The notes under the pieces: generated by a model | Seen by the model: only the letters and a program-made list of their open reading frames with translations | What the model was told of the DNA's origin: nothing | Databases searched by the model: none | Part shown: one piece after another, positions 6,997 through 39,376 of the stretch | Layout: each line of letters starts with the position of its first letter | Numbering within the stretch: the first letter of the stretch is position 1 | Made by a program: the position numbers and the translations under genes | NCBI GenBank assembly: GCA_902780505.1 | Contig: CACZFN010000016.1 | Span: 1 to 39,498, forward strand | Origin: an uncultured Ruminococcus sp. | GTDB lineage: Bacteria; Bacillota; Clostridia; Oscillospirales; Ruminococcaceae | Direction of reading: 5' to 3' | Length of the DNA stretch: 39,498 bases

Positions 6997-9900
6997 ATGA
7001 TAAAAAGAGATTCGTTTTTTAAAAGAAAGCCTTTCATGGCTGTTGTTTGCTCACTGACGGCAGTGATAACTGCCGTTATAGTCGGCTGCTATGGCATAAA
7101 CAGTGTTTTTGCTGAGAAGACCGCCGGTGTGGCTGCTCACACTGTTGATCCTACAGGAAAGGGCGATGGTTATTCGGCGGTCTTATACGGCAACACGAAC
7201 GGCCTGCCTACTTCGGAGGCAAACGCTATTGCACAGACAGAGGAGGGCTTTATCTGGATAGGCAGCTACAGCGGCCTTATAAGATACGACGGCAATACCT
7301 TTGAAAGAATAGATTCCACAACAGGTATCACAAGTGTTGTAAGCCTGTTTGTGGATTCGGAAAACAGGCTGTGGGTAGGCACAAATGACAGCGGTGTCGC
7401 AGTGATCGATAAAGGCGATATAAAAATGTACGGCAAGGATGATGGCTTGCAGTCCTTGTCCATACGCTCGATAACTGAGGACGGTTCCGGGCGTGTATAT
7501 ATTGCCACTACTCACGGAATGGTGAGCGTGAACGACAAACTTGAAATGATACCGGTAGACGAACCGCAGATAAATGACGAGTATATAAGAAGTATTAAGC
7601 TCAGTTATGACGGAGTTGTTTACGGAATAACCACAGGCGGCAGTGTTTTTACTATAAGCGACGGCAAACTGACAGGTGTCTATGGCCCTGAAAAGCTCGG
7701 AATAGACAATGTGCGTTCTATTCTTCCCGATCCGGCTGAGAACGGTAAGATATACCTTGCGACCAATGACGGAAAGGTGTACCACGGTGAGCTTAAAAAC
7801 AGCTTTAAGAATGCAGCTTATACCGATACACAGCCGCTTGGTGTCATAAATTCAATGTGCATGGCCGATAACGATACACTCTGGGTATGTTCGGACAGCG
7901 GTATAGGGTTTATAAATGAAGGAAGGTTCATACTTATAAAAAATGTACCCATGAACACTTCTGTTGAGGATATGCTTACCGACTATCAGGGGAACCTCTG
8001 GTTTGCTTCCTCGCAGCAGGGCGTTATGAAGATAGTGCCTAACCAGTTCAGTGATGTTTTCGGAAAGTACGGGCTTGAGTCCGAAGTGGTGTATTCGACT
8101 TGCATGCTTGATGATATGCTGTTTGTTGGTACAAAAAGCCGCGGACTGATGATACTTTCAGACGGCAGTGTGCTTGACAGTTATCCGATAACGTCATCAA
8201 AGACAGCATCAGGTGAAAAGCTTGACGACACCGACCTGCTGAAAATGATGGATGGCTGCAAGATACGTTCGATAATAAGGGACAGTAAAAACAGGCTGTG
8301 GTTTTCTACGTTTGGTGATAATGGTCTTGTAAGGGTTGATGGCAGCGAGGCGGTAAAGTTCACATCGGCTGACGGTATGCCGTCTGACAGGGTGAGGACA
8401 GTCTATGAACGCTCTGACGGAACGATGATTGCGGCGTGCACAGGCGGCCTTGTTGTAATAGACGGCGATAAGATAAGCCAGGTATTTGGCGAAAGTTCCG
8501 GTATAAGCAATACCGAGGTGCTGACTGTAACTGAAGGATTTGGCGGTGAAATGGTCCTCGGTACTGACGGCGGGGGTATATTTGTCCTGAGTGACAACGG
8601 GGTTTTGCATCTGGGTATTGAATCAGGACTCAGATCCGACGTTGTCATGCGTATAAAGAAAGATATTTCAAGAGATATCTTATGGATAGTAACAAGCAAC
8701 TCTTTAGCTTATATGACAAGTGACTATAAGATAACCACTGTAAAGAAATTCCCCTATTCCAATAACTTTGACATTTACGAAAACACAAAGGGCGAAATGT
8801 GGGTGCTTAGCAGCAACGGTATCTATGTGACAGATGTCGCGCAGCTTATAAAAAACGAGGAGATAGAGCCTATATATTATGGAATGGACAATGGCCTTGG
8901 GTGTATAGCGACTTCAAATTCATACAGTGAACTGACAGCAGACGGCGACCTGTACATTGCAGGAAATACGGGTGTGGCAAAGGTGAATATCGAAAAGCCG
9001 TTTGAAAATGTAAGTCTTATAAAAATGTCGGTGCCGTATATAGAAGCTGACGGAGAGCAGATATATCCCGATAAATCGGGGGCTTTCCATATATCATCAG
9101 ATGTAAGGAAGCTGACTATTTATTCCTATGTGTTCAATTATTCGCTTATGAACCCTGATGTGACATACCGCCTTGACGGGTTTGAAAGCAACCCGACAAC
9201 ACTCAGAAGAAGCGAACTTGCGCCGATAAATTACACAAACCTCAAAGGCGGCGAGTACCGTTTTGTTATGGAAATAGCTGATCCCCAGGGGGGCGGCACA
9301 AAAAGCCTTAGTATCGTGATCATCAAGGAAAAGGCGATATACGAGCAGATATGGTTCCGCATTGTCGGTATAATAGGCATAGCGGCAGTGATAAGCGGGC
9401 TTGTATTGCTTTTTGTAAGGTACAGGACAAATAAGCTTATAAAGAAGGAAAAAGAGCAGAGATTGCTCGTGCGGGAGATAGTTGAGGCTTTTGCAAAGGT
9501 AATAGATATGAAGGATAAATACACAAACGGCCATTCCTCAAGGGTGGCAGAGTATACGACTATCCTTTGCAGAGAACTCGGGCTTGATGAAGAAACGATA
9601 GAAAAATACTATAATATAGCACTTCTTCATGATATAGGCAAGGTAGGTGTGCCGCCCGAGGTGCTCAATAAGCAGGGCAAGCTTTCGGATAAAGAATTTG
9701 CTATAATCAAATCACATTCGGCGCTTGGCTATAATACCTTAAAGGACATAAGCATAATGCCCGAACTTGCTATAGGTGCAGGTGCTCACCATGAACGCCC
9801 GGACGGCAAGGGCTATCCGAAAGGGCTGAAGGGCGACGAGATACCGCGTGTTGCACAGATAATAGCGGTTGCGGATACATTTGATGCTATGTATTCCGAC

Positions 9901-10116
9901 AGGCCTTACAGAAAGCGTATGAACTTTGAAAAAGCTGTTTCCATAATGAAGGAAGTCCGCGGGACACAGCTTGCGGCAGATGTTGTAGATGCATTTTTAA
10001 GGCTTGTCGATAAAGGTGAGTTCAGGGCGCCTGATGACCACGGCGGCGGAAGCACCGAGGACATAGATAATATCCACAGGAAATTCAATGGCAGCAAAAA
10101 CAAGGAGGAATCATAA
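6997..10116 (+). CDS. membrane sensor with beta-propeller, Y_Y_Y and HD-GYP domains (putative cyclic-di-GMP phosphodiesterase)
   Basis: 1039 residues. After a short basic start comes a membrane segment or signal anchor (about 12-39). About 600 residues of two-component-regulator propeller repeats follow, with recurrent GLPS/W.GT/I..D...RLWVGT patterns, then a Y_Y_Y beta domain (about 695-775), a second membrane helix (about 784-808) and a cytoplasmic HD-GYP domain (about 825-1010). The HD-GYP is intact: HSSRVAEYT, LLHDIGK with His878-Asp879, and HHERPDGKGYP with GYP at 939-941. HD-GYP proteins hydrolyse cyclic di-GMP. The outside propeller is the type used by hybrid histidine kinases to sense sugars or polymers, so this looks like a one-protein link from an extracellular signal to second-messenger breakdown. 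No kinase or receiver domain is present. ATG follows GAGGA. The next gene starts 2 nt after the stop, so they are co-transcribed. Confidence 0.9.
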   Translation: MIKRDSFFKRKPFMAVVCSLTAVITAVIVGCYGINSVFAEKTAGVAAHTVDPTGKGDGYSAVLYGNTNGLPTSEANAIAQTEEGFIWIGSYSGLIRYDGNTFERIDSTTGITSVVSLFVDSENRLWVGTNDSGVAVIDKGDIKMYGKDDGLQSLSIRSITEDGSGRVYIATTHGMVSVNDKLEMIPVDEPQINDEYIRSIKLSYDGVVYGITTGGSVFTISDGKLTGVYGPEKLGIDNVRSILPDPAENGKIYLATNDGKVYHGELKNSFKNAAYTDTQPLGVINSMCMADNDTLWVCSDSGIGFINEGRFILIKNVPMNTSVEDMLTDYQGNLWFASSQQGVMKIVPNQFSDVFGKYGLESEVVYSTCMLDDMLFVGTKSRGLMILSDGSVLDSYPITSSKTASGEKLDDTDLLKMMDGCKIRSIIRDSKNRLWFSTFGDNGLVRVDGSEAVKFTSADGMPSDRVRTVYERSDGTMIAACTGGLVVIDGDKISQVFGESSGISNTEVLTVTEGFGGEMVLGTDGGGIFVLSDNGVLHLGIESGLRSDVVMRIKKDISRDILWIVTSNSLAYMTSDYKITTVKKFPYSNNFDIYENTKGEMWVLSSNGIYVTDVAQLIKNEEIEPIYYGMDNGLGCIATSNSYSELTADGDLYIAGNTGVAKVNIEKPFENVSLIKMSVPYIEADGEQIYPDKSGAFHISSDVRKLTIYSYVFNYSLMNPDVTYRLDGFESNPTTLRRSELAPINYTNLKGGEYRFVMEIADPQGGGTKSLSIVIIKEKAIYEQIWFRIVGIIGIAAVISGLVLLFVRYRTNKLIKKEKEQRLLVREIVEAFAKVIDMKDKYTNGHSSRVAEYTTILCRELGLDEETIEKYYNIALLHDIGKVGVPPEVLNKQGKLSDKEFAIIKSHSALGYNTLKDISIMPELAIGAGAHHERPDGKGYPKGLKGDEIPRVAQIIAVADTFDAMYSDRPYRKRMNFEKAVSIMKEVRGTQLAADVVDAFLRLVDKGEFRAPDDHGGGSTEDIDNIHRKFNGSKNKEES

Positions 10117-19307: not shown

Positions 19308-21647
19308 ATGACTGACAGACCGACCTCAATAATGAAGCGAAGACTTAATATCGCACTGCTTGCGATCTTCGGTATCGTGATAATATACCTGATCTACAGT
19401 ATTTTCACCGTTACTGTGAGGGACGCCAGAAAGTGGCAGGAACTTGCAAATTCTCAGCAATTGCAGAGCACTATAGTCAAGGCTTCCCGCGGGGCGATAT
19501 ATGACTCGAAATCTCAGGTGCTTGCACAGAGTTCGACTGTGTATACCGTTTATGCCGATCCTGTTATGCTCGGATCATTCCTTGATAAGAAGGACGATAT
19601 AATCAAGGAGTATCAGGAAGCTATAGCGGAAGAAAAGGACGCAAAAAAGCGTGTTGAATACCAGGAAGCACTTGATAAATGCAAAACGGGTAAAGAGGTC
19701 TACGAGGAACTTGTGGCGCTTCTGGCTGACGAACTTATGGTGGAAACTTCGACTGTCCGTGAAAGATGTGAGAAAAAGGACAGTATGTATGAGATCATCA
19801 AGAAGGAGGTCGAAAAGACCACCTGCGATAAGATAAATAAATTCATGTCCGATAATGACCTTGACGGAGTAAGGTGTGAGCCTTCAACAAAGCGCTTTTA
19901 CCCGCAGAACGAGCTTGCGGGGGCAGTGCTCGGGTATATAAACCACGAGGGTGACGGCGTTTACGGGCTTGAAGCTTATTATGATGATTACCTTTCGGGT
20001 ATAGACGGCAGAACTGTTACGGCGAAGGACCGTGACGGCGAAGCGATCCCGTATAAGTATAAGCAAAGCTATGAAGCGCAGGACGGCGATTCGCTCTACC
20101 TCAATATCGACACGACTGTCCAGCTTTACCTTGAAAGCGCTTTGAGAAAGACGGTTGACCAGTTTAATCCGAAGGAGCGTGCCTGCGGTATCATAATGAA
20201 CCCCAAAAACGGCAAGGTATACGCTATGGCAACTGTAAAGGGCTGTGATCCTAACGAGCCCAATGAAGTATACGACGAAGCCTATGCCGCGATACTTGCG
20301 GGAATGGATCCGAATTCTGATGAATATGACAAGGCGCATATCGGATACCTTACAAAGCAGTGGACAAATAAGGCGATATCCGAACTTTACTACCCCGGAT
20401 CGGTATTCAAGGTAATAACAGGATCCTCCGCACTTGAAGAAAAGACTATATCGCTTGACGATACCTTTAACTGCGGACTGACCATGACGGTCGACGGTGT
20501 GCCGATAAACTGCTGGTCAGTAGAAAACGGCTATGACCACGGTTCACAGACGCTGGCTCAGGCGATAATCAATTCCTGTAACCCTGCTTTTATAAGGATT
20601 GGGCAGACGCTCGGCGTGCAGAAATTCTGCGATTACTTCAAGGCATACGGGCTTGCGGAAAAGACAGGCATTGACCTGCCGAATGAATCGGAAAGCTCTT
20701 ACTATACGGCAGACAGAATGTCAATGGTTGACCTTGCGGTGTCAAGCTTTGGTCAGGCTAATAAGATAACGCCTATACAGATGATAACAGCGTATTCGGC
20801 GGTTATTAACGGCGGGTACCTTGTTACACCGCAGATCGTTGACAAGATCGTTGACGAAAGCGGCAACATAGTAAAGGAATTTGAACCTGTTATAAGAAGA
20901 CAGGTAATATCCGAGGAAACCTCAAAGGATATGCGTGATGTGCTTGAAAACAATGTTTCGACATCACATACGGGCAACTGCTATATACAGGGGTATAGAA
21001 TAGGCGGTAAGTCGGGTACATCCCAGAAAATGGACGTTGATCCTACGGGCGGTACATACGTCGGTTCGTACTGTGCTTTTGCGCCCGCTGATGATCCGCA
21101 GGTGATAATACTTGTAATGGTTGACGATCCCACAGGCAGCAGCTACTACGGTTCACAGGTCGCAACACCTGTATGCGTTGAAACACTTACGCAGGTGCTT
21201 CCGTACCTCGGCTTCTTCCCTGAGTATACAGACGAGGAGATACAGAAGCTTCAGGTGTCGGTGCCAAACGAGCAGTATCAGCCTGTGAATGATGCAAAGA
21301 ATACGATTGAATCCTTGGGCCTTACCTGCAAGGTGGTGGGCAGCGGTGATACGGTGCTCAGACAGACTCCTTCAAGCGGCTCTGTTGTAAAGGGCGGTAC
21401 TGTACTGCTTTATACAGATGAAACACCTGAAGAAATGAAAACAGTGCCTTCGCTTATGGGGCTTACAAAAGATCAGGCCTTGAATACCATCGAAGAATAC
21501 GGCCTTAACCTTTCTATCAGGGGCAATGATGCAGACGTTGAAGGCGCGCTTGCTCAGGGCGATCAGAGCGAAGCGGCAGGCGCAAGCGTTCCTGAGGGGA
21601 CCGTTATAACCGTAACATTTGCATCAAATACAGTCAACTCGCAGTAA
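19308..21647 (+). CDS. division-type penicillin-binding protein 2 (FtsI/PBP2x-like transpeptidase) with two PASTA domains
   Basis: 779 residues: short cytoplasmic start, one membrane helix (about 15-36), a dimerisation/pedestal region, and a transpeptidase domain with all three penicillin-binding motifs: SVFK (Ser365-Lys368), SCN (423-425) and KSG (568-570). Two PASTA domains follow (about 635-702 and 704-775), rich in G.V..G and TV..Y/F strands. It cross-links septal peptidoglycan together with FtsW encoded downstream. PASTA-bearing class B enzymes here are PBP2x/PBP2b-like (division) or SpoVD (spore cortex). Only one such gene is in the cluster and ftsW is adjacent, so the division role is preferred, but SpoVD cannot be excluded. 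ATG has AAAGGA 10 nt before it. Confidence 0.92.
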   Translation: MTDRPTSIMKRRLNIALLAIFGIVIIYLIYSIFTVTVRDARKWQELANSQQLQSTIVKASRGAIYDSKSQVLAQSSTVYTVYADPVMLGSFLDKKDDIIKEYQEAIAEEKDAKKRVEYQEALDKCKTGKEVYEELVALLADELMVETSTVRERCEKKDSMYEIIKKEVEKTTCDKINKFMSDNDLDGVRCEPSTKRFYPQNELAGAVLGYINHEGDGVYGLEAYYDDYLSGIDGRTVTAKDRDGEAIPYKYKQSYEAQDGDSLYLNIDTTVQLYLESALRKTVDQFNPKERACGIIMNPKNGKVYAMATVKGCDPNEPNEVYDEAYAAILAGMDPNSDEYDKAHIGYLTKQWTNKAISELYYPGSVFKVITGSSALEEKTISLDDTFNCGLTMTVDGVPINCWSVENGYDHGSQTLAQAIINSCNPAFIRIGQTLGVQKFCDYFKAYGLAEKTGIDLPNESESSYYTADRMSMVDLAVSSFGQANKITPIQMITAYSAVINGGYLVTPQIVDKIVDESGNIVKEFEPVIRRQVISEETSKDMRDVLENNVSTSHTGNCYIQGYRIGGKSGTSQKMDVDPTGGTYVGSYCAFAPADDPQVIILVMVDDPTGSSYYGSQVATPVCVETLTQVLPYLGFFPEYTDEEIQKLQVSVPNEQYQPVNDAKNTIESLGLTCKVVGSGDTVLRQTPSSGSVVKGGTVLLYTDETPEEMKTVPSLMGLTKDQALNTIEEYGLNLSIRGNDADVEGALAQGDQSEAAGASVPEGTVITVTFASNTVNSQ

Positions 21648-21671: not shown

Positions 21672-23105
21672 ATGAAGCTTTATGACCTTTTGCAGGGCGT
21701 GGCTGAGACCGCGCTTGAGAATATCGAGATAACAGATATCACAAGTGATACAAGAAAGGAACTTAGCGCAGGGTTTGCGTTTGTGTGTATAAAGGGCAAT
21801 ACCTTTGACGGGCATAACAGCGCTAAGCAAATGTGTGAGCGCGGTGCCGCTGTTATAATCTGTGAGCATGATCTGGGGCTTGACAATCAGGTCATAGTTG
21901 AGGATACAAGAAGTGCTTTCCCGAAGCTTTGTGCAAACTTTTTTGACAACCCGCAGAGGAAGCTGAAACTTATCGGCGTTACCGGCACAAACGGCAAGAC
22001 AACTATAACTACAGTTACAAAAAGGCTCTTTGATAAGCTTGGAATAAAAGCGGGGCTTATAGGGACTGTCAGCAACGAAATAAATGATACCGTTATCCAT
22101 ACCGAGCGTACAACGCCCGAACCCTATGACCTTTTTGAGCTTTTTGCAAAAATGGCTGAGGCGGGCTGCGAATACTGTGTTATGGAAGTTTCATCACAGG
22201 GGCTTGAACAGAGAAGGCTTGAAGGGTGTGAATTTGAAGTGGGGGCGTTTACCAACCTTACACAGGATCACCTTGATGTTCACGGTACAATGGAAAATTA
22301 CTACAACGCCAAGAAGATACTTTTTTCACAGAGCAAGAGGGCTATAATCAATATAGACGACGAGTACGGCAGGCGTTATTATGACGAGATAGATATCCCG
22401 AGGAGTACCCTTTCGGTAAAGGGGGCGGGGGATTTCAATGCTGAGAATATCCGCCTGACAGCACACGGGCTTGAATATGATTTCAATGACGGCAAGGTCA
22501 AACTCCCTGTTAAATTCAGAATGCCTGGAATGTTTAATGCATCAAATTCGCTGACGGTAATTGCGATCTTTGAGGCACTCGGCTTCGACGTCAGCAAAAT
22601 TGCCAGGATGATAGGCGATATTGAGGGAGTCCGCGGCAGGGTGGAGGTCATACCCACAGGACGCGACTTCACAGTGATATGTGATTATGCACATACGCCT
22701 GATGCACTTGTCAATGTGCTTTCCACCATAAAGGAATGTTCGGACGGTACACTTAAATGTCTGTTCGGCTGCGGCGGCAACAGGGACGCTAAAAAGCGCC
22801 CGCTTATGGCAAAGGCTGCGGCAGAGTATGCGGATTTTCTTATAGTGACATCAGATAACCCGCGAAACGAAGATCCTGAACTTATCATAAAGGATATACT
22901 TGTGGGACTCGAAGGCACAGATAAGCCGTATATCACGATAACCGACAGGCGTGAGGCGATACACTGGGCTGTTAAAAATGCAAAAAGCGGTGATATAATA
23001 GTCCTTGCGGGCAAGGGACACGAGGATTATCAGATACTTGCGGGAATGAAGAAGATACATTTTGACGAGCGTGAGGTAGTTGCCGAAGCACTTGCAGAGC
23101 TTTAA
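21672..23105 (+). CDS. murE: UDP-MurNAc-L-Ala-D-Glu:meso-diaminopimelate ligase
   Basis: Adds the third residue to the peptidoglycan stem peptide using ATP. 477 residues in three Mur-ligase domains: substrate-binding N-terminal part, central P-loop GTNGKTT (105-111), and C-terminal domain containing DNPRNEDP (395-398 for DNPR). DNPR is the known specificity motif for meso-diaminopimelate, so the wall should be DAP-type. ATG after AAGGAG. The gene begins 24 bp after pbp and is followed by murF within 50 bp, all in the same operon. Confidence 0.96.
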   Translation: MKLYDLLQGVAETALENIEITDITSDTRKELSAGFAFVCIKGNTFDGHNSAKQMCERGAAVIICEHDLGLDNQVIVEDTRSAFPKLCANFFDNPQRKLKLIGVTGTNGKTTITTVTKRLFDKLGIKAGLIGTVSNEINDTVIHTERTTPEPYDLFELFAKMAEAGCEYCVMEVSSQGLEQRRLEGCEFEVGAFTNLTQDHLDVHGTMENYYNAKKILFSQSKRAIINIDDEYGRRYYDEIDIPRSTLSVKGAGDFNAENIRLTAHGLEYDFNDGKVKLPVKFRMPGMFNASNSLTVIAIFEALGFDVSKIARMIGDIEGVRGRVEVIPTGRDFTVICDYAHTPDALVNVLSTIKECSDGTLKCLFGCGGNRDAKKRPLMAKAAAEYADFLIVTSDNPRNEDPELIIKDILVGLEGTDKPYITITDRREAIHWAVKNAKSGDIIVLAGKGHEDYQILAGMKKIHFDEREVVAEALAEL

Positions 23106-23153: not shown

Positions 23154-24515
23154 ATGGTAAAGATGACATTAAAGGAAATAGTTGAGGTAGTTGACGGCAG
23201 CTTCGGGTTCCCGTCCGACACCGAAGTGACAAGCGTGTGTACAGATACCCGCGCAATAAAAGCGGGGTGTGTGTTCATAGCACTGAAAGGTGAAAACTTT
23301 GACGGGCATGATTTTGCTGCAAAAGCGACAGAACTCGGCGCTGAAGCGGTGATAACAGAGCGCCCGATAGAAAATGCAAAGTGCATTGTTGTGGATTCGA
23401 CAAGGCGAGCGCTTCTTACACTTGCTTCACATTACAGAAACAAATTCAGGATACCCCTTGTGGGCGTTACGGGAAGTGTCGGCAAGACTTCCACAAAGGA
23501 CATGATAGCAAGCGTGCTGTCACAGGGGTTTAAAACGCTTAAAACAGAGGGCAACCATAATAACGAGATAGGTCTGCCGCTTACCCTTTTCGGGATAGAG
23601 GAGGATACGCAGGCGGCAGTTATAGAAATGGGCATGAACCATTTCGGGGAGATATCCCGCCTGACACTTTGTGCCTGTCCGACGATTGCCGTAATAACAA
23701 ATATCGGTTTTTCGCATATTGAGAACTTAGGTTCGCAGGAGGGCATACTGAAAGCTAAAATGGAGATACTTGACGGCTGTTCGTATGAAGCGCCGCTTAT
23801 TATAAACGGCGACGACAAGCTGCTTGCAAATGTTACCCCCCGCGGCGGCAGGAGGACTGTCAGCTATTCCTATTCAAAGAAAAGCTGTGACGTTTATGCA
23901 TCTGATATAAAAGCGGGCGGCGGGATGATAAGCTTCACTATAAACAGTAAGCTTGGCAAAACGCCTGTAACGCTTAACTGCTACGGCGAGCATAATGTTA
24001 TGAACGCACTTGCGGCGTTTGCAGTAGGTATGGAACTTGGCATGGAAGCGGATATGATGGCGGCGGGCATTGCTGCGTTCCGCCCTGACGGTATGCGACA
24101 GAATATAGTTGAAAGAAACGGCCATACACTTATTATAGACTGCTATAACGCCGCACCTGATTCCATGAGATCGGGCGTGACAGTGCTTACACAGATAGAT
24201 ATCCCCGAGGGGGCAAAAAGGGTGGCTGTAGTTGCAGATATGTTGGAACTTGGCAAAATGGCGCCGAAGCTCCACAGGTCTGTCGGTGAAACGCTTGGCG
24301 CGGCAGGAGTAGACCTTATCTGCTGCTATGGAGAAAATTCAAAGTATTATATAGAGGGCGCTGTTAAAAAAGGCTTTGACAGGGAAAAGTGCTTTCACTT
24401 TGACACCCATCAGCAGATGACGGATTTCCTTAAAGAAAACCTGAGTGCAGGTGATGCCGTGTGGTTCAAGGGCAGCCGCGGTATGAGGCTTGAAACTGTG
24501 GCAAATGAATTATAA
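23154..24515 (+). CDS. murF: UDP-MurNAc-tripeptide:D-alanyl-D-alanine ligase
   Basis: Adds D-Ala-D-Ala to complete the UDP-MurNAc-pentapeptide, ATP-dependent, cytoplasmic. 453 residues. N-terminal domain with DTRAIKAGCVFIALKGENFDGH, then the P-loop VTGSVGKTST (Lys111), then EMGMNHFGEISRL and a C-terminal ligase domain with YNAAPDSM and ADMLELG. The ribosome site is weak (GAGG far upstream), and ATG 23163 is an alternative start four codons in. The 3' end runs into the frame of the MraY-like gene. Confidence 0.95.
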   Translation: MVKMTLKEIVEVVDGSFGFPSDTEVTSVCTDTRAIKAGCVFIALKGENFDGHDFAAKATELGAEAVITERPIENAKCIVVDSTRRALLTLASHYRNKFRIPLVGVTGSVGKTSTKDMIASVLSQGFKTLKTEGNHNNEIGLPLTLFGIEEDTQAAVIEMGMNHFGEISRLTLCACPTIAVITNIGFSHIENLGSQEGILKAKMEILDGCSYEAPLIINGDDKLLANVTPRGGRRTVSYSYSKKSCDVYASDIKAGGGMISFTINSKLGKTPVTLNCYGEHNVMNALAAFAVGMELGMEADMMAAGIAAFRPDGMRQNIVERNGHTLIIDCYNAAPDSMRSGVTVLTQIDIPEGAKRVAVVADMLELGKMAPKLHRSVGETLGAAGVDLICCYGENSKYYIEGAVKKGFDREKCFHFDTHQQMTDFLKENLSAGDAVWFKGSRGMRLETVANEL

Positions 24516-24543
24516 CACGCTGACACCCCTCGGAGGGGCAGTG

Positions 24544-25518
24544 ATGTTCATAGCCTTTTTGACGAGTGCTGTGTCGGGAAGATGGCTGATACCGATATTC
24601 CGCTTTTTTAAAACGGGAATGTTTGAAGCGCGTATTGGCAGCAGAATGGTTTCCGACGGGACTTCACCGCGCTTTGGAGGGGCAGTTGCTCTTACAGGGC
24701 TGCTCGCGGGGGCGGCTGTTTATTCCGTTTTCCCGGTTGTCGGGGGGACGTATTCTCTCGGGTGGGCGGTACTTGCGTATATATTGCTTGTGTTCCTTAT
24801 CGGCTTTTTGCAGGATTATATAAAGCAGAAGCTCAGGCGGCCTGCGGGTATCAAACTTATGCACGAGGTATTATATGTGTGGGGTGTGTCTTTCTGCTTT
24901 CTTTTACTGCTTGAAGCAAATGGCGCTGTAACGACATCGGTGCTGCTGCCTTTTCGGTGGGGATTCCTTGAAATGGGGCTTTTTTACTGTCCTGTCATAT
25001 CGTTTGTGATGACGTTTGTTATCTGCACATTCTGTGTGCACGACAGCTTCGGCGGTGAGGAGGAATACTCGACAGGCGGGCTTACGACAGTCAGCGTTTT
25101 GCTTATATCGCTGTTTTTTGCGGTATTGGGCGAGGGCGCTTCAATGCTTGGCTATATTCTTGCAGGTGCGGCGGCAGGGCTGCTTATATGGGAACTTTCA
25201 CCACCAAAGATATACCTCGGCCAAAGCGGGCAGATGCTTTTCGGGGCCGGCTTTTGTGCAATGGCAATAATTTCTTTAAGAGAAATGCTATTGATTATTC
25301 TGCCGGTTTCTGCTATAATGGAATTTACGGCAGCTTTTATAAGATATTTTTATTATGTAAAAACAAAAAAGGTGCTGCTTTCAGGCGGCAGTATACATTC
25401 GCATTTGAAGAAAAAGGGATATGGGGATATGTTTATAATACTGCTCTTTATCCCGCTTGATGCTGTGGGAATAATAACAGGCATTATGTTTATGCTGTAC
25501 AGCTTTAAGCTGATGTAA
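24544..25518 (+). CDS. MraY-like membrane protein lacking key catalytic residues
   Basis: About 324 residues with some ten membrane helices, in the usual mraY slot between murF and ftsW. The MraY fold can be followed end to end: GTSPRFGG for GTPTMGG, FLQDYIKQKLR for FVDDYRKV, CVHDSFGGEEEY for NLTDGLDGLA, YLGQSGQMLFGAG for FMGDVGSLALGG, and SIHSHLKKKG for IHHHYELKG. The first Asp of the DD pair is Gln90 (Asp91 kept), the catalytic Asp of the MGD loop is Gln227, a DGLD Asp is Gly170, and HHH is H-S-H. MraY makes lipid I; with these changes I infer a pseudoenzyme, scaffold or flippase-like role rather than normal transferase activity. Start: ATG 24544 after GGAGGGG; ATG 24505, overlapping murF, is an alternative without a site. 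The degeneracy is seen; the loss of activity is inferred. Confidence 0.82.
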   Translation: MFIAFLTSAVSGRWLIPIFRFFKTGMFEARIGSRMVSDGTSPRFGGAVALTGLLAGAAVYSVFPVVGGTYSLGWAVLAYILLVFLIGFLQDYIKQKLRRPAGIKLMHEVLYVWGVSFCFLLLLEANGAVTTSVLLPFRWGFLEMGLFYCPVISFVMTFVICTFCVHDSFGGEEEYSTGGLTTVSVLLISLFFAVLGEGASMLGYILAGAAAGLLIWELSPPKIYLGQSGQMLFGAGFCAMAIISLREMLLIILPVSAIMEFTAAFIRYFYYVKTKKVLLSGGSIHSHLKKKGYGDMFIILLFIPLDAVGIITGIMFMLYSFKLM

Positions 25519-25537
25519 GGATTCTGGGGGTTTGATT

Positions 25538-26803
25538 TTGGCATACAAGGGTATAAAACGTGAGCGTGACGGCAGTATTGTCTACGAACGCAAGGGCTTT
25601 TCCGTAAAAAAGCATACTGAAGTCGAGCTCGGCAGCAGTGAGGGCATTGCGACAGAGCGTAAGGTCTTTAGCATAAAGCCCGTGTTTTCAAGAATTGACA
25701 GGCCTTTTCTTATACTTGTGCTTGTTCTGCTCGGTTTCGGGCTTATGATGATGTTTTCGGCTTCGTATGCATGGGGGCTTGAACAGGGTGACGGGTATTT
25801 CTACATAAAAAAGCAGGCAATATTTGCGGTTATCGGCATTATCGCAATGGGTGTGACTTCTATTGTCGATTACCATAATTATCTTAATACCTATGTGGCA
25901 TTCGGGTTTTTCCTGCTTATGCTTGCACTTACATTTTACACGGCTATTGCCGGCACCTCCACGGCTGACGCTTCAAGGTGGATAGTTATAGGTTCATTCC
26001 GCTTTCAGCCGTCTGAGCTGTTAAAGATATCGCTTATCATTATCTTTGCATATACGGGTGCTGTAAACTTCCCGAAATACAGCAGCTGGAAGTATTCCAC
26101 TATTCCCTATATAGTATATCTTGGCCTTGCGGTGCTGGGGCTTGTGCTTCAGCGTCACCTTTCTGCGGTCATGCTTGTAAGTGTGCTCGGCCTGTCGCTT
26201 ATGTTTGTAAGCGGCGTGCCGTTAAAAACATTTGTGAAGTTTATGATAGTCCTTGCGGTGCTTGGCATTATTGCGGCGCTGTTTCTGTATTTTGTGACAG
26301 GTGGGTTTTCATATATCGAAGAACGTATTATAAGCTGGCGTGATCCCATGTCAGATGTGCAGGGCAAGACGCACCAGACATATAATGCACTTTTAGCGAT
26401 AGGTTCGGGCGGTATATTCGGTCTGGGCTTCGGTGAATCAAGACAGAAGTACCTCTACCTTTCCGAATCACAGAACGATTTCGTTTTCGCTATAGTATGT
26501 GAGGAATTCGGCCTTATCGGAGCGATAGTCGTGATACTTCTGTTCTCGCTTCTGATAGTACACGGCTTCTATATCGCTACAAGGGCAAAGGACAGGTTCG
26601 GTATGCTGCTTGCGGCGGGTATAACTATTCAGATAGGCTCACAGGCTTTGCTTAATATGATGGTCGCCTGCAACGCCTTCCCGAATACAGGTATCTCACT
26701 GCCGTTTTTCAGCTACGGCGGCACGGCACTTACGCTTCAGCTTGCTGAAATGGGCATGATACTGAACGTATCACGTCAGGCAAGGGTAAAAAAGAAAAGA
26801 TAG
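25538..26803 (+). CDS. ftsW: septal peptidoglycan glycosyltransferase FtsW
   Basis: SEDS-family polymerase that joins lipid II into glycan strands with the partner class B PBP at the division site. About 421 residues with roughly ten membrane helices after a polar 50-residue cytoplasmic start. Conserved features are intact: FSASYAWGLEQGDGYFYIKKQ, WIVIGSFRFQPSELLK, YLSESQNDFVFAIVCEEFGLIG with the essential Asp, and NTGISLPFFSYGGTAL. I place the start at TTG 25538, since GGGGG lies about 7 nt upstream; a TTG at 25532 is too close to it. The adjacent pbp gene supports the FtsW rather than RodA/SpoVE assignment. Confidence 0.92.
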   Translation: MAYKGIKRERDGSIVYERKGFSVKKHTEVELGSSEGIATERKVFSIKPVFSRIDRPFLILVLVLLGFGLMMMFSASYAWGLEQGDGYFYIKKQAIFAVIGIIAMGVTSIVDYHNYLNTYVAFGFFLLMLALTFYTAIAGTSTADASRWIVIGSFRFQPSELLKISLIIIFAYTGAVNFPKYSSWKYSTIPYIVYLGLAVLGLVLQRHLSAVMLVSVLGLSLMFVSGVPLKTFVKFMIVLAVLGIIAALFLYFVTGGFSYIEERIISWRDPMSDVQGKTHQTYNALLAIGSGGIFGLGFGESRQKYLYLSESQNDFVFAIVCEEFGLIGAIVVILLFSLLIVHGFYIATRAKDRFGMLLAAGITIQIGSQALLNMMVACNAFPNTGISLPFFSYGGTALTLQLAEMGMILNVSRQARVKKKR

Positions 26804-26825: not shown

Positions 26826-27956
26826 ATGTTGAAGGTATTACTCGCAGGCGGAGGAACAGCAGGACATATAAACCCGGCGCTCGCCATAGCGGAGATAATA
26901 AAGGAGCATATCCCTGATGCGGAGTTTGCATTTGTCGGCAACCCCAAAAAGCTTGAGGCGACTATTATCCCAAAGGCAGGGTATCGCTTTGAGCCGATAA
27001 ATGTCGAGGGCTTTCAGAGAAGCTTTACACCGCAGAATATAAAGCGCAATATACACGCTATGAACTGCCTTATGAAAACAGGCGCTCGTTCAAAGGAGAT
27101 AATAAAGGACTTTAAGCCTGACCTTGTTATAGGTACGGGCGGGTATGTTTCTGGGCCTGTGGTAAGAAAGGCCGCACAGATGGGCATACCTACGGCGATC
27201 CACGAGGCTAATGCTTTTGCGGGTGTAACGACAAAGCTGCTTTCCAAAAAGGTGAACGCCATTATGCTTACAGTAAAGGAAACCAAGAACCTTGATGCTG
27301 CTGTTATGGGGAAGGTGACTGTTACAGGACTCCCCGTGAGAAAGGCGTTTGACGCTATGTCAAAGGATCAGGCGAAGGAAAAGCTCGGCTTTGCAAAGGA
27401 CGAGGTGTGTGTGCTTTCCTGCGGCGGAAGCTTAGGTTCGATGACGATAAATGACAGCGTTTTAAAGCTTCTTAAATGGTATAAGGATAACGGTATTACC
27501 GTAAACCATATACATTCCTACGGTACATATGCGGGGTATAAGGATTACCCGCAGAAGTTGAAAGAGCTCGGCCTTGATTTTGAAAATGACCGGCACAGGC
27601 TTGTGAGCGATTATATTAATATGCCGGTATGTATGGCAGCTGCTGACCTTGTTATAACAAGGTGCGGCGCATCCACACTTGTTGAACTTGAAGCTATAGG
27701 CAGGGGGGCTGTTCTGATACCATCTCCTCACGTTGCTGAAAACCACCAGTACCATAACGGTATGGTGCTTGAACGTGCAGGCGCAGGCAAGGTGATCGAG
27801 GAAAAAGACCTGACTGATGAACTGTTTATTGATACGGTAAGCTCACTTATAAAGGATAAGGATAAGCTTGATGAACTTGGCAGGAAATGCGCATCACTTT
27901 ATATAAAGGATACAAACGAAAGGATCTGGGGGGTACTTGAGCCCCTTATAAAATAG
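26826..27956 (+). CDS. murG: lipid I GlcNAc transferase MurG
   Basis: Transfers GlcNAc from UDP-GlcNAc to lipid I on the inner membrane face, producing lipid II. 376 residues, GT28/GT-B fold: N-terminal GGGTAGHINPA glycine loop, IGTGGYVSGPV, the C-terminal SCGGSLGS loop, and a donor-binding VITRCGASTLVELEAIGR followed by PSPHVAENHQYHN. All typical motifs are present, so lipid II can be made if lipid I is supplied from a MraY elsewhere. ATG after AGAGGTGA, 23 bp after ftsW. Confidence 0.96.
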   Translation: MLKVLLAGGGTAGHINPALAIAEIIKEHIPDAEFAFVGNPKKLEATIIPKAGYRFEPINVEGFQRSFTPQNIKRNIHAMNCLMKTGARSKEIIKDFKPDLVIGTGGYVSGPVVRKAAQMGIPTAIHEANAFAGVTTKLLSKKVNAIMLTVKETKNLDAAVMGKVTVTGLPVRKAFDAMSKDQAKEKLGFAKDEVCVLSCGGSLGSMTINDSVLKLLKWYKDNGITVNHIHSYGTYAGYKDYPQKLKELGLDFENDRHRLVSDYINMPVCMAAADLVITRCGASTLVELEAIGRGAVLIPSPHVAENHQYHNGMVLERAGAGKVIEEKDLTDELFIDTVSSLIKDKDKLDELGRKCASLYIKDTNERIWGVLEPLIK

Positions 27957-27981: not shown

Positions 27982-28881
27982 ATGGCAAAGCACAACCCGT
28001 CAATGAAAGGGCTTGAAATGCCCGATGAAATGAATATAAACGAGGAACTGCATTCTCAGCTTATCGGTGAGAGCTTCGGCAAATCGTCGGGGCAGATGTC
28101 AAATCAGATAAATATGCTTGCGGAAAGCAACTTTGCAGCTGCTTCAAAGAACTACGAAGGCATTGAGAAGATAGATGACCTTTCAAAAGCGAGGGCAAAG
28201 CAGCAGAGGGACAAGGAACAGAATTTCCTGAGCGGCGCCTATAAGCCCGACGTTTACCGCAACAAGAGGAAGGCTGAGGACGATTCGGGCATAAAGATAG
28301 GCAGGAAAAGCTATGGCGTTAAGACGATAGTGAGAAATGTTATTATCGTGATTGCTGTGCTCACGTTGTTTACACTGTTTATACCGCCTGTGTTTACTAC
28401 ATCTGTTGAGGATTGCCAGAGCAAAATGACTAATATCTTTGAGGAAAAGGGTATAAACGATGTCCGTGTTCAGTACGGAAATGACTATACTATGGTAAAT
28501 GATGATGCACTCAGTTCTGAAAAGTATGAAAATTACAGAGAGCTTTATTTTACTTTCAGGGTGCTTAATCTCTCGCCTTTGCAGACAAAGGTGCCGCAGT
28601 ACAGCCTTGCAAGGGAACAGTCACAGCTTGCTGACAAGATAGTTTATGTCGGGAACGACAATACAAGGAATGATGATATAATACAGCCGTTCTCGTCGTC
28701 AAAGATAGTTATAAAGGTGCTTGTGAATGTTGAGGGTATGGAACAGAGCGAGTTTTCAAAGCTTGTGCGCGGAATGATATTTGAAACGGTCGAAATGGAA
28801 AGAAAGGTCACAAAAACTGCACTTTGTCCGACACTTCCCGCATTTTTATTCGTGTCTGATTCGGTTTCGCTTTCACTTTAA
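27982..28881 (+). CDS. unrecognised single-pass membrane protein inside the dcw cluster
   Basis: 299 residues, no family I recognise. The first 114 are polar, charged and probably unstructured (Met/Asn/Gln/Lys-rich, with ELHSQLIGESFG and KARAKQQRDKEQN). One membrane helix follows (about 115-138, VIIVIAVLTLFTLFIPPVF). The 160-residue extracytoplasmic part looks like mixed alpha/beta (DVRVQYGNDYTMV, YRELYFTFRVLNLS, KIVIKVLVNVEG). Topology resembles bitopic divisome proteins (FtsQ, FtsL), and the gene is placed between murG and murA, 25 bp after murG with AAGGAG. A wall- or division-related role is a context inference only. Confidence 0.85.
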   Translation: MAKHNPSMKGLEMPDEMNINEELHSQLIGESFGKSSGQMSNQINMLAESNFAAASKNYEGIEKIDDLSKARAKQQRDKEQNFLSGAYKPDVYRNKRKAEDDSGIKIGRKSYGVKTIVRNVIIVIAVLTLFTLFIPPVFTTSVEDCQSKMTNIFEEKGINDVRVQYGNDYTMVNDDALSSEKYENYRELYFTFRVLNLSPLQTKVPQYSLAREQSQLADKIVYVGNDNTRNDDIIQPFSSSKIVIKVLVNVEGMEQSEFSKLVRGMIFETVEMERKVTKTALCPTLPAFLFVSDSVSLSL

Positions 28882-37561: not shown

Positions 37562-39376
37562 ATGCCAATGCCGTTAAACAAAACAGATGTCCGTGTTACA
37601 GGCGGTGTATTCCGTGAAAGAATGAATACAGACCGGGATTATTTGCTTGAACTTGACAGCCGGTGTTTATTGCAGAGTTTTTATCTTGAAGCGGGGATCA
37701 TCATGCCCGGGCTTCAGGTGGTGCCTGATCCGAATGAAGCTAAGCTTCACTGGGGCTGGGAATCACCTACCTGTCAGCTGAGGGGGCATTTCCTCGGGCA
37801 CTGGCTTTCGGCTGCTGCTGCCTTTGTGGCAAGCGATAATGACTTTGAACTTAAAACAAAGCTTGACAGGATAGTTGCAGAACTTGCCCGCTGCCAGAAA
37901 TTGAACGGCGGCGAATGGGTAGGCTCTATCCCCGAAAAGTATATGGACAGGCTTTCGGGGAGTGAGTATATATGGTCACCCCAGTATACTATGCATAAGA
38001 CATTAATGGGGCTTGTTGATGCATACCGATATGCGGGCAGCGATCAGGCACTTGAGATAGCCGATCACCTTGCCGACTGGTATATAAAGTGGATAGAGCG
38101 CGCATCAGCTGTTGATCCCGACATAGCTTATAAGGGCGAACAGGGCGGAATGCTCGAACAGTGGGCCGAACTTTATAATATCACAAAAAACGAAAAGTAC
38201 CTTACCCTTATAGATGCATATAAGAACAATTATATGTTCACCGAGCTTGAAAACGGAAGTGATGTGCTTTCGGACAACCATGCAAATGCAAGCATACCTA
38301 TATCACATGGCTCAGCAAGGCTTTATGAAGTGTTTGGTGATAAGCATTACCGTGAGCTTACCGAGCGTTTCTGGGAAGATGCTGTAACAAAGCGCGGAAT
38401 GTTTGCAACGACAGGCGCAAACGCAGGTGAATTCTGGATACCGCCGCATAAAATGGCACAGTATATCGGGGATAATGATCAGGAGTTCTGTACAGTTTAC
38501 AATATGGTAAGAACTGCCGAATACCTTTACCGCTGGACGGGTGATACACGTTATGCGGATTATATTGAACGTGCAGTATATAACGGATTTCTGGCACAGC
38601 AGAACAAGCACACGGGTATGCCGACATATTTTCTGCCGCTTCGTGCGGGGGCGGAGAAAAAGTGGGGCACAAAGCGAAATGACTTCTGGTGCTGCCACGG
38701 CACAATGGTGCAAAGTCCGACTCTTTACCCGGGCATTATTTATTATACTGATAAAGACAGTATATCAGTTGCACAGTATATACCGTCAGATGCGGCTGTA
38801 TGCATGAATGGAAAGAAAGTGAAGATATCCCAGACTACTGATATGCTGAGCTACAACAATCAGGTGTTCTTTGATGAACATTCAGGCGGGGAAAAATCCC
38901 GCTGGTCAGTGAGGTTTGAACTGAACTGTGAGGAAAGCGCAGAATTTACTCTCAAGCTGCGTGTTCCATGTTGGTGCGCGGGAACGCCTAAGCTTATAAT
39001 TGATTCACAAGCTGCCGCACCGCAGATCAGCGACGGGTATATCCTTCTTTCCCGTGTATGGACGGGCATCACAGTTATAAACCTTGTGTTTGAATCAAAG
39101 GTGGTATTGGAGCCGCTTGATGACCAGAGTGATCTGTGTGCCCTTGTTGACGGACCGATAGTCCTTGCAGGGCTGACAGACAAGGACAGCGGTATAAGAT
39201 ATGACGGGGATATTGAAAATGCCCTGTATCAGCGCACCGAGCACACCTATGCCACATATGTATGGAAGCAGAACTGCTATGTGACAAAGGGGCAGCGTGA
39301 AAATTTTGAACTGATGCCGCTTTATGATGTGACAGACGAGAAGTATACCGTTTATTTTACTGTGGATAAAAACTGA
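37562..39376 (+). CDS. GH127 beta-L-arabinofuranosidase
   Basis: 604 residues of the DUF1680/GH127 family, cytoplasmic (no signal peptide). It has an (alpha/alpha)6 catalytic barrel, with WGWESPTCQLRGHFLGHWLSA, the zinc/nucleophile motifs E308-F-C310 (QEFCTVYNM) and W-Cys377-Cys378-HGT, plus C-terminal beta domains. In the characterised enzyme HypBA1 the second Cys pair supplies the thiol nucleophile and zinc ligands, and these residues are all present here. A Glu in AGEFW about 18 residues before E308 is a likely acid/base. It releases L-arabinofuranose from arabino-oligosaccharides or hydroxyproline-linked sugars, fitting a gut fibre degrader. ATG 37562 follows AGGAGG; single gene. Confidence 0.9.
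   Translation: MPMPLNKTDVRVTGGVFRERMNTDRDYLLELDSRCLLQSFYLEAGIIMPGLQVVPDPNEAKLHWGWESPTCQLRGHFLGHWLSAAAAFVASDNDFELKTKLDRIVAELARCQKLNGGEWVGSIPEKYMDRLSGSEYIWSPQYTMHKTLMGLVDAYRYAGSDQALEIADHLADWYIKWIERASAVDPDIAYKGEQGGMLEQWAELYNITKNEKYLTLIDAYKNNYMFTELENGSDVLSDNHANASIPISHGSARLYEVFGDKHYRELTERFWEDAVTKRGMFATTGANAGEFWIPPHKMAQYIGDNDQEFCTVYNMVRTAEYLYRWTGDTRYADYIERAVYNGFLAQQNKHTGMPTYFLPLRAGAEKKWGTKRNDFWCCHGTMVQSPTLYPGIIYYTDKDSISVAQYIPSDAAVCMNGKKVKISQTTDMLSYNNQVFFDEHSGGEKSRWSVRFELNCEESAEFTLKLRVPCWCAGTPKLIIDSQAAAPQISDGYILLSRVWTGITVINLVFESKVVLEPLDDQSDLCALVDGPIVLAGLTDKDSGIRYDGDIENALYQRTEHTYATYVWKQNCYVTKGQRENFELMPLYDVTDEKYTVYFTVDKN

Follow-up and report, generated by a model that had tools for sequence, protein, structure and literature searches.

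An MraY homologue without key catalytic residues in the dcw cluster of an uncultured Ruminococcus, and a second MraY-like protein as the probable lipid I synthase

Here, we describe the gene in the mraY slot of the division and cell wall (dcw) cluster in a stretch of DNA of 39,498 bases from an uncultured Ruminococcus sp.; this stretch (the window) is the whole of contig C16 of a draft genome (G000) of 2.82 Mb that is 98.6% complete. The gene (24505-25518, + strand, as are all features of the window given below) is an open reading frame for 337 amino acids flanked by murF and ftsW, and we refer to its product as pseudo-MraY on the basis of the open reading frame call, matches to profiles and PDB sequences, motif tables and the ratios of non-synonymous (dN) to synonymous (dS) substitution rates in relatives. 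The stop of murF (23154-24515; 421.9 bits against TIGR01143) at 24515 overlaps the start of the pseudo-mraY gene by 11 bases. Downstream follow a SEDS gene of the ftsW/spoVE type (25532-26803; 306.2 bits against TIGR02614 and 285.6 bits against TIGR02615, both below the cut-offs) and murG (26826-27956), which served as the cluster anchor in relatives, while murE (21672-23105) and a gene for a penicillin-binding protein of the spoVD/ftsI type (19308-21647), both named by sequence and used as references for locus comparisons, lie upstream. The 337-residue protein scores above the threshold of PF00953 (37.7 bits; cut-off 27), matches TIGR00445 with 57 bits (E-value 2.1e-15) without reaching the cut-off of 192, and has 5jnq, an MraY, as its top chain in a search of PDB sequences (E=4.5e-16). 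To judge from these matches, it is a genuine MraY homologue.

With residues counted from the ATG at 24505, the motif alignment has Gln in place of the first Asp of the DD pair (E. coli D115-D116), with the second Asp kept (Q103-D104; 24811-24816). The NxxNxxDGLDGL loop (residues 178-193; 25036-25083) reads CVHDSFGGEEEYSTGGL, with an 8-residue insertion and with Gly replacing the second Asp of DGxD; MGD reads L238-G239-Q240, with the Q240 codon (25222-25224) at the position of E. coli D267; and the HHH position (25396-25404) reads H298-S299-H300, so that the first and third His are retained. D115, D116, N187, D190, D193, D267 and HHH are all present in the 16 canonical MraY proteins aligned with it (16/16), and the differences are therefore not due to chance. 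In other words, neither the catalytic Asp residues expected of an active MraY (E. coli D115, D116 and D267) nor the HHH motif are complete, and the window protein differs from MraY (phospho-MurNAc-pentapeptide transferase; TIGR00445/PF00953; 5JNQ, 4J72 and 8G01) by the missing equivalents of D115 and D267, of the second DGxD Asp and of the middle His, by the insertion and by a TIGR00445 score that falls far short of the cut-off. Orthologues share the loss of catalytic residues: Q103-D104 is identical in 7/7 genomes of the window's genus, and the D267 position is Glu in six of the seven and Gln in the window protein. The first-pass annotation of this DNA had reported these substitutions and asked whether they are conserved in the clade. 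They are real by alignment and by comparison with relatives, and they are shared within the genus; the residue identities had been given correctly, but the numbering (Q90, Q227 and G170) was wrong, Q103 and Q240 being correct. These residues predict a catalytically dead protein that would make no lipid I.

A second MraY-like protein, P2, is encoded on contig C42 of the same genome. It answers the proposal to look in the genome for a second MraY with intact motifs as far as DD, DGID and MGD are concerned, which are intact, but not at the HHH position, which reads HDH. The Asp motifs DD, DGxD and MGD are invariant in 36/36 aligned P2 proteins, as is HDH, and the P2 of G074 in the family sample described below reads HDQ. 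P2 shares with the window protein its PF00953 membership, the MraY fold and the genome; unlike the window protein, it keeps DD, DGxD and MGD, has HDH and a short loop after DD, and is encoded outside dcw in the window genome. The two are 15-20% identical (alignment A2, with 23 P2 proteins). Against TIGR00445, P2 reaches 82.7 of the 192 bits required, and there is also a weak match to the wecA model (45 bits; cut-off 326); PF00953 covers it, and no dedicated family model for P2 was found. In the P2 neighbourhood (L119; C42, 3662-8268), a gene for a VanY-type carboxypeptidase adjoins on the opposite strand, and SpoIIP and LPG_synthase_TM genes are nearby.

A scan of named genomes yielded at least 565 stretches encoding P2 relatives; the best 80 were retained, and their record titles are mostly those of Ruminococcus, Lachnospiraceae genera and uncultured Clostridia. 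A single PF00953 match is present in 17 of the 30 named genomes searched, which were drawn from these 80, although this search can overlook very degenerate copies (the copy in G030 was missed). In the five genomes checked by coordinates (L. pectinoschiza, [C.] fimetarium, Eubacterium AF22-9, Butyrivibrio XPD2002 and Lachnospiraceae RGIG7929), the sole match is P2. The same holds for P2-bearing genomes that lack a dcw copy, four in the family sample and two further ones. Such bacteria possess a peptidoglycan wall. Because they are walled and have no other PF00953 match, P2 should be the MraY of the single-match bacteria. A relative that could supply the reaction is present in the window genome with intact Asp motifs; its activity is what we infer, and P2 very probably makes lipid I. 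Three other genomes (G219, G220 and G226) combine P2 with a canonical MraY in a dcw cluster, and murD adjoins mraY in two of these three. In nine genomes of the Lachnospiraceae type that bear P2, MurG (loci L265-L273) is ~30-34% identical to the window MurG, and none of these nine loci, from P2-only Lachnospiraceae or P2-bearing kin, has dcw neighbours.

The first-pass annotation had also stated that murD is absent from the cluster and had suggested a search for it elsewhere. This was correct, and murD lies on contig C5 (75114-76451; 353.6 bits, cut-off 211.95). The tie that it implied between the missing murD and the change in mraY does not hold: murD is seen at 0/31 family loci and at 0/20 canonical control loci, some of the loci being incomplete, and as a positive control the same MurD reference finds murD adjoining mraY in two Lachnospiraceae. 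Because the canonical loci of the family also lack murD, we reject this link; the location of murD outside the dcw cluster is a family-wide trait that is unrelated to the mraY change.

In a family sample of 197 genomes from 125 genera, P2-like proteins are well separated, with matches of at least 255 bits in 28 genomes and a next match of 62 bits. The dcw slot of these 28 genomes is degenerate in 19, empty in four (g64 and g75; murF directly adjoins ftsW), canonical in four and near-canonical in one. This last copy (G042; L114, G042:C68) looks canonical except that MGD reads MGN and that the first Asn of NAVNLTD is Asp, and it possibly marks the onset of such a degeneration. The 169 genomes without P2 comprise 156 with a PF00953 match of 1.1e-31 or better, three with a degenerate copy, two with a partial one (G121 and G123) and eight without a match, seven of the eight being less than 90% complete; motifs were read in 21 of the 156 (12 of which are also in later motif tables), and the remainder are intact by score alone. 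P2 and degeneracy are associated with a Fisher p of at most 1e-21 (10 partial or unmatched genomes excluded), a value that overstates the significance, given the relatedness of the genomes. By identical coordinates, G158 is R. albus KH2T6; in its genus, two PF00953 proteins are present in 26 of 29 genomes, the dcw copy only in two and P2 only in one. G098 (genus g99; 95% complete) has neither a PF00953 nor a MurG match, perhaps because its wall pathway is reduced or missing, or because of a gap.

The degenerate and empty states recur on the species tree, which was inferred from SpoVD, MurF, FtsW and MurG of 49 genomes and midpoint-rooted; P2-bearing and odd genomes were sampled together with 20 fetched canonical controls, two of which were dropped as genes were missing. 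These states fall on seven separate branches, i.e. g80, g82, g110, g31, g29, g118 and the Ruminococcus group (g50, g75, g104, g64, g72, g66, g36 and g1). Four groupings with canonical neighbours are well supported (g118, 100; the Ruminococcus group with G040, 100, the group itself having 90; g82 with g19, 100; g31 with g70, 91), and support for the remaining three branches is 62-81. Lachnospiraceae clades are intermixed with family clades in the P2 tree (e.g. g82 with Butyrivibrio XPD2002, support 97), and this interleaving suggests that P2 was transferred several times, deep support in this tree being weak (32-75). Cluster architecture varies among these loci. The dcw cluster lacks murE at L098, L099, L117 and L118 (g82 and g19), where murF directly follows spoVD, and at L100 (G118), L248 (G136), L251 (G124) and L254 (G092) a single long open reading frame matching MurE (966 amino acids in G118) occupies the place of murE and murF by mraY, which suggests a MurE-MurF fusion.

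The degenerate set comprises 45 copies, three of which come from genomes that lack a P2 match. D267, N187 and the middle His are lost in all 45 (the middle His being a gap in two) and D115 in 37; 42 copies retain D116, 35 retain H324 and 31 retain H326. Counted over D115, D116, D193, D267 and H324, one residue is lost in 3 copies, two in 25, three in 13 and four in 4. The degenerate copies are maintained under purifying selection. In genus g66, dN/dS of pseudo-MraY is 0.05-0.24 over 20 listed pairs (FtsW or pseudo-MraY dS <1), with 0.03-0.13 for FtsW and 0.03-0.15 for P2; it is 0.23 in the separate g118 lineage, compared to 0.11 for FtsW, and 0.15 and 0.26 in g36. Canonical MraY gives 0.035-0.076 in three other genera and 0.20 in a g43 pair that has both canonical MraY and P2, and the g29 and g19 pairs are saturated and give no value. 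A simple pseudogene is rejected, as the frames are open and dN/dS is well below 1.

New invariant residues have also appeared. S241 and G294 are shared by all 32 Ruminococcus-group copies, whereas 12/12 canonical proteins carry Thr and Met at these sites; R33, R47, D51, K117 and Y332 are likewise invariant and are variable in canonical proteins; and D46 is present in 30/32 (Ser in the window protein), the canonical residue being Pro. No residue signature is common as a set to the independent degenerations, with scattered matches in g29, g31, g80, g82, g110 and g118. Within the window's genus, the putative cytoplasmic loops have a mean conservation of 0.81-0.91, and predicted transmembrane segment 7, the N-terminus and one outer loop are similarly conserved (0.86-0.89); the underlying structure model is weak (mean predicted local distance difference test score 68.5) because its alignment held P2 proteins rather than close relatives, and was used for approximate topology only.

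Based on these data, we suggest as the probable explanation that a second MraY took over and that the dcw MraY lost its catalytic Asp residues and was retained as a membrane pseudoenzyme. What the computation shows is that a second copy exists, that catalytic residues are lost, that the two occur together, that such events recur and that selection is purifying. In this model, P2, an MraY of a type that also occurs in Lachnospiraceae and was probably gained by horizontal transfer, would take over lipid I synthesis, and the ancestral MraY of the dcw operon would afterwards lose its catalytic Asp residues. In the window genome, the presumably dead copy would have escaped deletion and would still be encoded together with MurF, FtsW and MurG. 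It would then act non-catalytically, its likeliest role being the binding of precursors linked to lipid or UDP and/or the docking of MurF, MurG or FtsW at the membrane, and perhaps it is a sensor or a partner of the active MraY. Thus, the earlier proposal of a retained pseudo-transferase with the real mraY and murD elsewhere is well supported by P2 on C42, MurD on C5, the substitutions shared within the genus and purifying selection, even though its murD link is not; the scaffolding, regulation or lipid handling that it named would be putative roles, and the divergent enzyme that it offered instead is the less likely candidate. Pseudoenzymes in general are dead relatives of enzymes that are retained as regulators or scaffolds. 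The window protein resembles them in its lost catalytic residues, its preserved homology under purifying selection and the presence in the genome of a relative whose motifs are intact; it differs in that the dead copy is the ancestral and operon-encoded one, the intact enzyme is the newcomer, and the pattern recurs within one family.

Published work suggests what a dead MraY might do. A cavity at the outer dimer interface of P. aeruginosa MraY is reported to probably bind lipid II and limit activity (PMC10914600), active-site mutants of B. subtilis MraY are reported to lose activity and still bind the nucleotide substrate (PMC5039524), and MurG, MreB and MraY have reportedly been cross-linked in one E. 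coli complex (PMC2170320). In view of these results, an MraY without activity could still hold precursors or lipid II and position MurF, MurG or FtsW. The P. aeruginosa feedback model, with a ligand site apart from the active site, would provide a possible reason for keeping a dead MraY; it differs in that the sensor is the active enzyme itself, and the portion of that report considered here describes no pseudo-MraY. In short lists of titles and abstracts with thin coverage of subscription journals, we found none on a paralogue of MraY that has lost activity, on the displacement of MraY, or on Lachnospiraceae or Ruminococcus with two MraY proteins. More tentatively, and with some doubt, we speculate that MraY has an ancient non-catalytic job in the wall machinery encoded by dcw, i.e. 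binding lipid II or UDP-MurNAc-pentapeptide and keeping MurF, MurG or FtsW in place, and that this job was split from catalysis several times by an imported second MraY, the old one being kept as a dead, dedicated sensor or scaffold.

Several observations weigh against a takeover by P2 with retention of a dead dcw copy. Besides the relatedness that inflates the Fisher test, a degenerate dcw copy is found without a P2 match in G065 (99% complete), G103 (88%) and G168 (85%), and six genomes (G063, G156, G074, G164, G206 and G208) have lost the dcw copy, which is therefore dispensable in some lineages. Three copies (G171, G237 and G257) lose D267 alone among the five key residues, the D115 and D267 positions are often Glu or Gln, possibly retaining some metal binding, and placement in the alignment is uncertain for very divergent copies. 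The D98N variant of B. subtilis MraY (the D115 position) is reported to stay active with a shifted pH optimum (PMC5039524), and loss of D115 alone, therefore, need not be fatal. Finally, the degenerate copy is less conserved than every compared neighbour gene in 11/11 pairs (among the window genome and two congeners, 51-55% for pseudo-MraY and 74-88% for its neighbours). Canonical MraY, in contrast, surpasses FtsW in conservation in four of five pairs and roughly equals it in one (97.3 vs 98.5%). Given the low conservation of the degenerate copy and a dN/dS of ~0.13-0.32 in the window's genus (21 pairs; less precise, at dS 0.85-1.85 and dN 0.13-0.46), its constraint is relaxed.

Instead, the dcw protein could be a neofunctionalised transferase that catalyses a phosphosugar or lipid reaction with other chemistry or another substrate and uses D104, H298, H300 and the newly conserved residues. 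The retained D116-position Asp (42/45), first His (35/45) and third His (31/45), the polar R33, R47, D51 and K117 in 32/32 Ruminococcus-group copies and the purifying selection are all compatible with such an enzyme; however, the MGD Asp is gone in 45/45 copies and is replaced variously by E, Q, S, R, K or H, and the new invariants do not extend as a set to g29, g31, g80, g82, g110 and g118, and we regard this explanation as unlikely. We consider simple decay of the dcw copy, or its retention solely for translational coupling to ftsW and murG, quite unlikely. Its low conservation, the overlap of its start with murF in the window and the six deletions would fit, but the frames are open, dN/dS is ~0.05-0.32 and clade-specific residues are invariant. 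Moreover, as murF directly adjoins ftsW after deletion, the operon can do without the dcw copy.

Alternatively, the dcw protein could still be the lipid I synthase, with P2 being another polyprenyl-phosphate transferase, e.g. for a wall polysaccharide. The low TIGR00445 score of P2 (82.7 of 192), its weak wecA match (45 bits, cut-off 326), the five family genomes with a canonical or near-canonical dcw MraY plus P2 and the reported residual activity of B. subtilis D98N (PMC5039524) would all be accommodated. Set against the loss of the catalytic Asp residues in the dcw copies, the single PF00953 match in 17/30 named genomes, within the reach of that search, and P2 as the sole match in the four family-sample and two further genomes without a dcw copy, this is very improbable. 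That the substitutions stem from an assembly chimera or sequencing error, which the draft state of the contig might suggest, has a negligible probability: Q103-D104 recurs in 7/7 genus members, for which we reject sequencing error as its source, and the MGD Asp is lost in 20/20 copies fetched from the genus of G158.

The essential enzyme MraY is a target of antibiotics, and the protein encoded in dcw is usually assumed to be this enzyme. In Ruminococcus, R. albus included, and in several other genera, the gene in the dcw slot appears not to be the enzyme, and annotation, essentiality predictions and inhibitor work could, therefore, target the wrong protein. If the takeover by P2 is true, the fact that the gene was kept while catalysis was lost repeatedly would make a structural or sensing function of MraY, apart from catalysis, testable. 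Nucleoside inhibitors are reported to contact the HHH motif (H324 or H325; PMC9495235), and P2 has Asp at the middle His of this motif.

Three further genes of the window are mentioned for completeness. A 299-residue protein with one apparent membrane segment by eye is encoded between murG and murA (27982-28881) and has no match in Pfam or NCBIfam. A 1039-residue protein (6997-10116) combines two-component-regulator propeller repeats with an HD_5 domain, and a protein of the GH127 beta-L-arabinofuranosidase family is encoded at 37562-39376.
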